64,000 nucleotides of DNA from Paramecium tetraurelia (Eukaryota > Ciliophora > Oligohymenophorea > Peniculida > Parameciidae), in the NCBI RefSeq assembly GCF_000165425.1, contig NW_001799008.1, positions 124,001-188,000 on the forward strand. Reading direction: 5' to 3'. Positions 30,996 to 36,334 of this stretch are shown piece after piece (the first letter of the stretch is position 1; every line of letters starts with the position of its first letter). A program made the translations under genes and the position numbers. The notes under the pieces are model-generated. The model saw only the letters and a program-made list of their open reading frames with translations, was not told the DNA's origin and did no database searches.

Positions 30996-32708
30996 ATGAA
31001 AGATTTACGTAACCTTCTGAGTAAGGATAATGAGGATCAATTGTCAGATAAACGAGAATAACTCTATCAATAATAAGCAATAAGTCGAAGAACTGCTGTC
31101 ACTCGTGAATCTGGAAGGCCAGCTGGATCACGGTCTTATTAAAGATTTTTTAAGATCGATTCTCCTACTGGAAACCTTGGAAACTTTTTTCACCATCATA
31201 AATTCTCTTTATAACAGGATGCCTTCCATTATTAGGCAGATTAGTAAGAGAAATTTGTCGTTAAACAATATTGGAGATCTTTGCTTAGATGGCAAGGGTT
31301 CGATGACTATCTGTTCTTGAGAGATCCTATCAACCTAAGACACATAAGGGGAAGGGAGATCCTAACAAAGAATGATGTGGTAGAAGAATTACAAGCATAC
31401 AACATCCATGTTTAAGTGTTGTATCAGGCTGACAATGGGATGTAGGAGTACAAGGACTAGCATCGTAGATCATAGATGCAGCAATTACAGAAGTTGTATT
31501 AGCCTGGAGAGGCAAATTACCAGAAATTTAATCCGGAGAAGTACAAATAATCATTTTTTGGGGGAAAGGATACTGGAAAATTGTAATAAATGGTATTTGA
31601 GAATGCTAAGTTGCATGAGTTAATTGATAAGATACAACAAATACTCTAATTGATCAATGAGAAGATTGTGGGCGAAGAGATTAACCAAATATCCCCACTT
31701 GGAGAGAGGATGATCCGATTATTATGGAAAATCGGATGTTTGAATATGTTTTTGTTGGGCTATTTCATACACAACATTATTTTGGAGATTTATGGTAAGG
31801 AGAAGTTGGCATATCAGAATTGGAAGAAGATCTTGCGTATTTGTAATATGTAAGGCAATCATTGTCACCGCTACAAATTGATAGCCTACAAGCACATATC
31901 CAAGATTTGCATTAAGCTCTAATTATATGACAAGAGTCTCATCTATCTGAAGAAGATGCTCAAACTCTCATGGATTATTAACGATACCAATTACGAGATC
32001 TTTACTTATGATAAAATATCTTTATGTTATTATTACAAGTAGGATATGAACAAGGCAATCTATTATCATGAGAAATTCGCTTAGGGAGAGTATGAAGAGG
32101 CAGGCAAGGGCATGAGGAATGTAGGAGAGGCTGCCTATCTATTGGATGCAAAAATGAAGGAGGGGTTCATCGATTAGAATTCCTATTCTGAGGATGAGTA
32201 CGATCTTGATGTCCTCTTATAGAATGGCAATTTGAACAAGTGGGAATTGGAGAACAAACGCAAGGATCTAAAGGTTATGGCCAAGAAGATACCCACGGAA
32301 TATAAGAAGGGACATAGTTTTGGTAAAATTCATCGACCCACTAATAACATTATTGACTTCAAACACGCCATGTTAATCTTACACAAATTTCAAAACAAAT
32401 AATAGATTCCTTTGGGACCTATTCAATCAAAGGATGTTCCTGATCAAATATAATCTACGAAGAGATGGAAGAAGAAAGATCCTCTCTAATCTTGTCAATA
32501 TCTATTCAATTAAAAGAGCACTAATAGAGTTGCCCAGAACTTTCTATTGTAAGAAGAAATTAAAGAATAACCTATTAGTGATGCTATCTGCTTCAAACCA
32601 TCAGAGAATGTATATTATATAAAAAAGATGATCAGAGTATTTTAATATGATCTTAAGTATTTTTTATAGAAACAATCTCTTTTTAAAAATTCCACTGATT
32701 GTTTATGA
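30996..32708 (+). CDS. Hypothetical helical-repeat protein
   Basis: An intronless 570-residue product. The N-terminal 170 residues are charged and partly disordered. The middle (about 230-400) is a helical solenoid of TPR type. Helices repeat as YKLIAYKHISKICIKLQLYD, KSLIYLKKMLKLSWIINDTN and YYYKQDMNKAIYYHEKFAQG, and the last is close to a TPR consensus. The C-terminal part is basic and less ordered. Many ciliary transport and assembly proteins have this plan, but no family is recognisable. Confidence 0.75.
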
Positions 32709-32722
32709 ATATAATTTAATAT

Positions 32723-34659
32723 ATGAATTAACCAATATCACTAAATTGTCAAAATCCAAAAAAAGGATACCTCATATAGAGAGGAGTAAGTAAAATCAAT
32801 CAGAATCCAAAGGAGAAACAAACATTTGCTGACTATGTGAATTCATTGTCGGAATCATAACATCATCTGCTCACTCATAACAAGTCTCCTAGAAAAGACT
32901 CAGTGCCCAAACGAAATCCCCCGCTCCCTAAATTAGAATTGCCCAATCCTGATATCATGAATAAGAGATTTGTTGTAAATGTAGGTAAATGTCCGATCAC
33001 TAATTTCCAATCGCCTATTTATAGACCTAGTGTACAATCCCATTAAAATTAATTCCATAACCTCTACTCTCCCAGACACTATTCTTTTGAGACTCGGAAG
33101 TCTCTCGTTCCTCAATAAAGATTGTTGCCTATCCATCGAACTTCGGTCAACAATATCACTGGTAGGAGCGTAATGGACGATGACATGAGTCTGTTCTATT
33201 ATAAAATTGGAGGCTCTGAAGTTGTTGATCAACTCAATGAGGAATTCCATAGTTATTCAACTCAACACGAGATGATCTCATGTAAATACTCAAAATATAT
33301 TTAGAGATTGATGATTTAGAAAGATATAAATAACGATTCAGGACGTTCTTGGAATACATTATGGGAAAGCCCATATTCTATAATCTGGAACAGCTAAAAG
33401 AGAAACATAAGGATTTAAGACTCAAAAATAGAGATTTCAATTAATTCAAAAACTATTTAATTGTAAACAATACTCATCTAATATAGACATGCTTCTTAAA
33501 AGTCAATAAAGGACAATTAGATTTTGTGTTTGAATTCAGTTCCATGATTGAGCAATATCGTTATTGTATCATCAATAGCAATACTCCATTCGCAATTATC
33601 TACAACCAGAGGACGGAGAAGTTGAACACAAAAGACGTCCCAGATGCAATCCTGCAATTAGCTCAGAGCAGCTATCAAAAGATTTTCTAGGACAATTCTC
33701 TAGCACCCTACTTCATAGGCATCGAAATCAAACAATAAGCCAGAAAATTGGGCAAGATCCTGTCTCAATTAATGGCATGGGAACAAACCAATGATCAGAT
33801 CTTGGTTGAGATGAGACAGTCCCATAAGGGAATGCATCTCACAAATGTCCATTTCACACTCTTTAAATAGCATTTGATTGAGTCTATGCGTCAATTGAAT
33901 ATACAAGAGAAACAAATAGAGTTGGTGACATCTAGAATGGATGGGTATCGAAGTTACATCATTAATCAAGACTCTTTGCTCGACTACTATGGGGAACAGT
34001 CTTCCCTATTGTAGGTTTAGCAGAAGAAGTATGTGTAATTGTTGAAAAGAGATGTCAGAATGTAAAACTATCCCTTGATAGCCCTGGAGAGACATTCTTA
34101 ATTTATATTGAGATATCTCACTCATCAACACATACCAACCCTCACAAAAAATGATTTGTGGACTATCCATTCGAAGTATAACATAGCCACTGAATGGATC
34201 GATTCCTTTCGGGATAACTTTTTTCAACTTATTAAGAGTCTCAATTTAAATGCCTTGATCATCTAAGATTACGAAGATATCTGGTATAAACTAAGGAAGA
34301 ATATCACCTAATGCCACTCGATTGAAAGCAGCGTTGGTAAGAAGAAGGTGGAAGTTGTAATAGCGAAAGTTTAAATGAAATTGTAAGACAATGAAAACTA
34401 TACAGAATATTTTAAGAATGCCAACTACCAAATGAATTTACATCTGCATCGAATTATTGCTTTTATTCTTAAAGATTAACACATATATAACTCTAATGAT
34501 TTGAAGGTCATTCATCAATCAGTGAAAATTAGAGAAAGCACATTTAATTTGTTTGTTTAATTCTTAAAAAATGCTATGTAAGAAGAAGCCATTTGTTCCA
34601 GTCTAATTGCTTAGGCTGAAGAAATTTGTAATTATTATAAAAAGAGTATATGTACTTGA
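32723..34659 (+). CDS. Two-domain truncated-globin protein
   Basis: A 637-residue product with one 23-nt intron at 33282-33304. Residues 1-190 are Ser/Pro-rich and unstructured, and 190-290 are helical. Residues ~295-405 are a truncated (2-over-2) globin: AQSSYQKIFQDNSLAPYFIG with Tyr at B10, then MRQSHKGMHLTNVHF, whose His360 sits at the proximal F8 place, then ESMRQLNIQEKQIELV. Residues ~530-630 form a second, weaker globin-like unit with LKVIHQSVKIRESTF and His590 at F8. Known Paramecium globins are single domains of about 116 residues. Oxygen sensing or NO chemistry is possible, but neither is shown by the sequence. Confidence 0.75.
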
Positions 34660-35417: not shown

Positions 35418-36233
35418 TCAAAAATCAATTGCCTGTTGTTATGTGCCAATAATCATGCTTGGATTAAACAAAGAGTTAGATCTACCAATCCAATCGAAAC
35501 TATTGGTTGGTTCAAGGTGTTTAATAATTTATCTAGTTGTCGACCCACTCAAAATCACAATCAAATGGAAAAAGCAAAAGACTCCTATGATGGCACTTAT
35601 GAAGCAAACTATAATCAATAAAAAATCTGTTAATCCATTGCTTTCCTGAGGATCGATTTTATTTAAACTAACCAGGATCGAAAGACCCTACATGAGGAGA
35701 CTGGCCAAAAACAAGGCAAAATATCTAATATAAATACTGTGCCATTACTTGTAGTTTCGTTTTCCTATGCAGTTATTCACAAAGGGACAATGATGATCAA
35801 ACATCAAAATGCAATTATCGCATTGTTTGCAATGGGATGAGCCTGGGGGTTTTTTGATTAAACAAGTCTCGCACATAGGCCAAGAGCCTTCAGTTTCCCA
35901 TTCTGTGTTCATGATTTCAAATATGTTCTTTCTGGGGATGATTCCAGGATCTGTAAATTAAGTCAGAAAGAGAAAGAATAAGGTTAGGAATCCTAAAAGC
36001 AAAGTGCAAATAAAGAGCAGTCTGTTGGCTTCCCAAATTTGTTACCCATTCGAAATACTAAAGAATAAAGGGAGGAGTATTAATCCACACCAGGTGAAAA
36101 GGTTAGGGCCATTATCAGAGCTAGGTCCAATCATGATTCTGCCACCCAGATAGAATCTATTCTTGCCTGGCCAAATCTCATATAGTTTGTGTTCTCTTTC
36201 ATCTTCGAATTTAATATGTTATTAATTTATCAT
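35418..36233 (-). CDS. DHHC-type protein S-palmitoyltransferase
   Basis: An intronless 271-residue product. It has four hydrophobic spans (two before and two after the cysteine-rich domain). The DHHC cysteine-rich domain reads [19 protein letters not shown] then [20 protein letters not shown], with the catalytic Asp-His-His-Cys. Upstream is FTDPGIIP, the usual DPG motif. The enzyme transfers palmitate to cysteines of membrane proteins in the ER or Golgi. The lipid-anchored MORN protein at 24738 is the sort of substrate such enzymes act on, though no link is shown. Confidence 0.95.
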
Positions 36234-36334
36234 CTAATATATTATAAATGCACATGTAGTATAAGTTGTTAATAACAAGAATTGATTATATATAATTTAT
36301 TAAACCTTTCATAAAAATATATATTTTCCAACTA

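Follow-up and report, generated by a model that had tools for sequence, protein, structure and literature searches.

How many globin units are carried by the protein encoded at positions 32723-34659 of this Paramecium tetraurelia stretch (the window, 64,000 nucleotides, nt, in all), and what could such a chain do? A first-pass annotation had read here one plus-strand gene in the ciliate code, whose 637-residue product would have two truncated-globin domains, with histidines at 360 and 590, behind a long leader. The gene, its strand, its code and both histidines were recovered, the 637-residue frame being obtained when the intron at 33282-33304 alone is spliced out; the length was not retained, since a probable second intron (33463-33486) reduces the product to 629 residues, and residue numbers throughout are those of this spliced protein. 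Judged by sequence comparison, the window protein is a chain of four tandem globin-like units, D1 to D4, each with an F8-like histidine (residues 221, 352, 467, and 582). The two regions originally named are D2 and D4, and both are globin-like with an F8 histidine, but the best Pfam stretch and the family alignment bring the count to four. The low complexity of the leader holds, although D1 (150-270) had been mistaken for part of it.

The Pfam family PF01152 matches the window protein in two stretches (E 2.8e-11, 44.1 bits against a gathering cut-off of 21), and the best of them, residues 158-234, lies inside D1 and upstream of the first domain proposed previously. Five further family members were scanned with the same model: two scored above the cut-off and three gave no match. 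The family alignment shows a unit order common to the intact members: leader, D1 (150-270), D2 (283-399), D3 (about 400-510), and D4 (about 511-629). Profiles of the single units, built from nine family members, were compared with the PDB. The D2 profile reached an E of 5.1e-11, with globins making up all 32 of the listed matches, and the D1 profile an E of 2e-6, with truncated haemoglobins as its 12 best matches. The D4 profile (over 506-629) was marginal (E 0.018), truncated haemoglobins being the top eight of its nine matches. In the profile alignments of these three units the F8 histidine is paired with the reference F8. At least two truncated-globin units are thus present in the chain, D1 and D2 each being significant on one spliced frame and D1-D4 being homologous.

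The profile of D3 (over 395-516) has no significant match in the PDB (E 0.81, to a cyanobacterial GlbN). In five of the six pairs among D1-D4 the profile-profile score was above that of every one of 200 column shuffles, and D3 agrees with D1 and D4 in register and score; its homology to these two units and its invariant histidines are the basis on which D3 is put forward as a putative globin unit. In its predicted structure (predicted local distance difference test, pLDDT, 67.9) globins rank first, without a significant E or an outstanding Z. A single-sequence structure model of D2-D4 (pLDDT 39.9) was not used.

A tblastn-type search of the source genome (69 Mb, 231 contigs) resolved 19 other genes of the family, these counts being lower bounds. 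All four F8 histidines were modelled in 18 of the 20 genes, the window gene included. The F8 histidine is retained in D1 and D2 of 19/20 members each, in D3 of 18/19 scorable members (C128 being excluded for a frame break), and in D4 of 20/20, a count obtained once the last intron of C5a had been refitted. In the alignment, the divergent and incomplete member on C187 has no F8 histidine in D1-D3. The four-globin copy on C128 has its frame broken within D3, by assembly error or as a decaying gene; the splice program bridged this break with two implausible introns. In nine-member alignments, with mean identities of 46-57%, the invariant columns, F8 histidine among them, number six in D1, 14 in D2, six in D3, and five in D4; the product of these invariant-column fractions is about 1e-5 by hand, for columns that, being conserved, are not drawn at random.

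The ratio of nonsynonymous to synonymous substitutions (dN/dS) between the window gene and C34, its nearest copy, was 0.045 over the whole coding sequence by the Nei-Gojobori method, a rough value as dS is near or past saturation. By part, it was 0.101 in the leader, 0.049 in D1, 0.013 in D2, and 0.083 in D4, and D3 has a dN of 0.041 with dS saturated. On these estimates every unit is under purifying selection, and constraint is weakest in the leader.

D2 has the highest conservation of the four units, with 57% mean identity. Its TyrB10 is found in 20/20 members, and PheCD1, GlnE7, and LysE10 in 19/20 each, with C187 as the exception. In a pocket-column alignment of eight family members and five single-unit globins of the same genome, TyrB10, PheCD1, and a polar E7 are all three present in D2 of 8/8 members. 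The tyrosine that had been assigned to B10 in the first annotated domain is Tyr302. At B10, CD1, and E7 the window protein shows His, a gap, and Tyr in D1; Tyr, Pro, and Leu in D3; and Gln, Phe, and Met in D4. The degenerate front attributed to the second annotated domain is seen in this Gln of the D4 B10 column, though Phe is kept at CD1. Of the eight aligned members, four have Tyr at B10 of D1, where the window protein has His; across the family the E10 residue of D1 is R, H, K, V or I.

A second histidine in D3, His442, is found in 19/20 members and occupies the E10 column in 8/8 aligned members. Its distance to F8 is 25 residues in 18/18 scorable members, compared with 24 in reference globins, and it may therefore be one place off E10. 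HMMER pairs it with the histidine of the AHQKAF motif of cyanoglobin, though the E is about 1 and the F8 histidines do not line up; the cyanoglobin residue is the distal ligand His46. D4 has a histidine exactly 24 residues before F8 in all six members of the window gene's clade, whereas the 14 other members have none there. Residues at E10 may coordinate the iron of truncated haemoglobins and so facilitate electron transfer, according to a passage of PMC11904497, and His or Lys at E10 is named as a potential iron ligand in an extract of PMC4720485. Furthermore, LysE10 is given as the ligand in Chlamydomonas THB1, THB2, and THB4 in part of PMC7082302.

The reading that we favour, at about an even chance, is a tetra-haem chain of four group I (TrHbN-type) units, presumably cytosolic, with a gas-reactive D2, bis-histidyl D3 and D4, and a role in NO/O2 redox chemistry. 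Each unit would bind one haem, held by its F8 histidine. With its full classical pocket (TyrB10, PheCD1, GlnE7, LysE10, and HisF8), D2 would be the unit that binds and reacts with O2 or NO. The haems of D3, and of D4 in the clade of the window gene, are probably bis-histidyl and six-coordinate because the second histidine is at or next to E10, and they would serve as redox or slow-ligand sites; D1 would keep its F8 ligand, its distal side being altered. Such a chain would most likely carry out NO/O2 redox chemistry, for example as an NO-dioxygenase-like detoxifier, and a passage of PMC4720485 predicts NO/O2 chemistry or O2 transport for group I truncated haemoglobins. A bolder proposal, which we regard as quite improbable, is that D3 and D4 relay electrons through their bis-histidyl haems to the O2/NO-reactive D2, so that the single tetra-haem chain, made up of globin units alone, would by itself act as an NO dioxygenase or a gas-gated redox switch.

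The principal alternative, unlikely but to be taken seriously, is that all four units are globin-like and haem is bound in D2 alone, perhaps also in D1 or D4, with the others turned into apo modules for structure or binding; the protein would then carry mainly a single haem within a globin scaffold. D2 is the unit in which the pocket is complete and conservation is highest, loss of CD1 and B10 is seen in D1, D3 or D4, the E10 residue of D1 is variable, and the D3 model is similar to non-haem helical proteins as well as to globins. However, the F8 histidines of D1, D3, and D4 are kept as strictly as that of D2, and they stand among only six invariant columns in D1 and five in D4. This weakens the alternative, as an apo unit has little reason to keep an F8 histidine.

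A second alternative extends the role suggested by the first-pass annotation, an O2/NO sensor or haem-based scaffold, to four units, with the leader as its output or docking part; we consider it improbable. Although the leaders are hard to align, short motifs recur in them and hint at a docking site. The motif [ST]F[AKR][DEQ][FYL][VILM] is present in 13/20 leaders compared with 0.02 expected in shuffles, the members being related and not independent, and CPF, present in all three groups of the family tree, is found in 10/20 compared with 0.12 expected. These two motifs, repeated across the groups, could dock a partner. The leader Cys-Pro is reminiscent of haem regulatory motifs; however, the window protein itself has no CPF in its leader, where a single KCPI is found at residues 89-92. 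Moreover, the leader contains no known output domain: no NCBIfam model matched it, and when the whole protein was scanned against Pfam the globin family alone was above its cut-off. The leader also evolves under the weakest constraint (0.101 against 0.045 overall), and nothing in the analysis favours a sensor or scaffold role. The matches to Pfam DNAJ_related (0.14) and NCBIfam bioH (0.029; cut-off 207 bits) were taken as chance. Finally, a chain of two truncated-globin domains only and a long leader is scarcely credible, for although both regions so named are globin-like, the best Pfam stretch and the significant D1 profile fall in the supposed leader, which refutes it for D1, and D3 has the register and score of D1 and D4.

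Ciliates are reportedly among the carriers of multi-unit TrHb1 in Hade 2017 and Vinogradov et al. 2013. Proteins with several 2/2 haemoglobin (2/2Hb) domains on one polypeptide are described as already known in the introduction of PMC7082302, which cites Hade et al.; the earlier statement that the chain has no described equivalent is not supported, because such chains are already in print. The title of Hade et al. 2017 speaks of tandem repeats of globin units, and these multidomain truncated haemoglobins likewise have several 2/2 globin units in tandem per chain. No description of the four-unit family was found in an open-access library, which is not evidence of its absence from print. The multi-unit kind itself being known, novelty may lie in how large the family is, in the fixed order of its four units, and in the differences among their distal pockets.

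The best profile matches of D2 are among single-domain group I haemoglobins, namely those of T. pyriformis (3aq5), of the P. caudatum type (1dlw), of C. eugametos (1dly/1uvx), and THB1 of C. reinhardtii. These share TyrB10, PheCD1, GlnE7, LysE10, and HisF8 with D2; they consist of one unit of about 120 residues, whereas the window protein has four units and a leader. The best PDB match of D1 is the hexacoordinate cyanobacterial GlbN (cyanoglobin, 1s69/1mwb). The distal ligand of GlbN is at E10, and a histidine is found at or beside E10 in D3, and in D4 of the window's clade; unlike in GlbN, the histidine of D3 is spaced 25 instead of 24 residues from F8, and the D3 match is not significant (E 0.81). 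In the protist Guillardia theta, multi-globin chimeric proteins likewise have more than one globin domain per chain but, according to PMC4101818, these are 3/3 myoglobin-fold domains joined to a putative cytochrome b5 part.

What six-coordinate haemoglobins do is still unclear according to a section of PMC7082302. If the haem assignments are true, the family would offer about 20 natural chains in which four units with different distal pockets have been kept in a fixed order through gene duplications, a ready system for studying six-coordinate haemoglobin function and the passage of electrons between globin units in one chain.

The second intron was chosen by a gene model trained on the long frames of the 64-kb window, which removes 33463-33486, a GT..AG stretch. 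Introns at the same place are found in the paralogues on C34 (23 nt) and on C1, C174, C21, and C40 (25, 25, 26, and 26 nt, respectively), where splicing is required because these lengths are not multiples of three and the frame would otherwise be lost. The spliced window protein is ungapped there in the paralogue alignment. Eight residues of the 637-residue reading probably come from this second intron, which may nevertheless be retained, as its 24 nt are in frame and without TGA.

Table. Position of the gene, its introns, leader and globin-like units in the window (residues of the 629-residue protein)
Feature	Position	Strand	Description
Whole gene	32723..34659	+	ATG to TGA, ciliate code, two introns, 629 residues
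Leader	32723..33169	+	Residues 1-149; low complexity; TFADYV from residue 34; one Cys-Pro at residue 90
D1	33170..33579	+	Residues 150-270; F8 His221 at 33406-33408; holds both introns; best Pfam stretch
Intron 1	33282..33304	+	23 nt; matching introns in C34, C1, C174, C21, C40
Probable intron 2	33463..33486	+	24 nt; chosen by gene model; encodes VNNTHLIQ in the 637-residue reading
D2	33616..33966	+	Residues 283-399; TyrB10 302, PheCD1 315, GlnE7 323, LysE10 326, F8 His352
D3	33967..34299	+	Residues 400-510; E-helix His442 at 34093-34095; F8 His467 at 34168-34170
D4	34300..34656	+	Residues 511-629; E10-like His558 at 34441-34443; F8 His582 at 34513-34515

A tree of 19 members, made without C187, shows three groups of six, four, and nine members; it carries a long-branch warning, and gene-prediction errors are present in C128 as well as in the first four-unit models. 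The four-unit order is common to all three groups, and the chain was therefore assembled before they parted. The copies on C34 and C1 have flanks like those of the window gene and arranged in the same order, C1 having one additional piece that is inverted; this pattern is as expected of copies derived from duplicated segments.

Upstream of the gene, a 570-residue frame (30996-32708, plus strand) gave no Pfam match at E 0.01; DNA similar to it adjoins the C1 copy, and little of such DNA is found at the C34 copy. The neighbour at 35418-36278 on the minus strand encodes a DHHC palmitoyltransferase (PF01529, E 6e-28). Among viral contigs, a DNA-pattern scan with the D2 alignment found 31 stretches that fit the pattern and no relatives among them. 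In the genome as a whole PF01152 has 21 matches, of which those on C174 and C50 belong to the four-globin family. Ten other PF01152 loci were modelled: five are clean single-unit globins of 112-128 residues, and five are merged or doubtful models.

On C16, C50, and C74 (L037, L039, L041), a pair of four-globin genes is arranged head to tail on one strand, separated by an unusually short gap of 17 to 21 nt from the first TGA to the predicted ATG of the second. An eight-globin fusion of these pairs was ruled out, as the first gene closes with a TGA, and the intervening gap has no GT start or AG end. If D3 and D4 do relay electrons to D2, these tandem pairs, which occur on three contigs with about 20 bases between the genes, would be of interest for joint expression.
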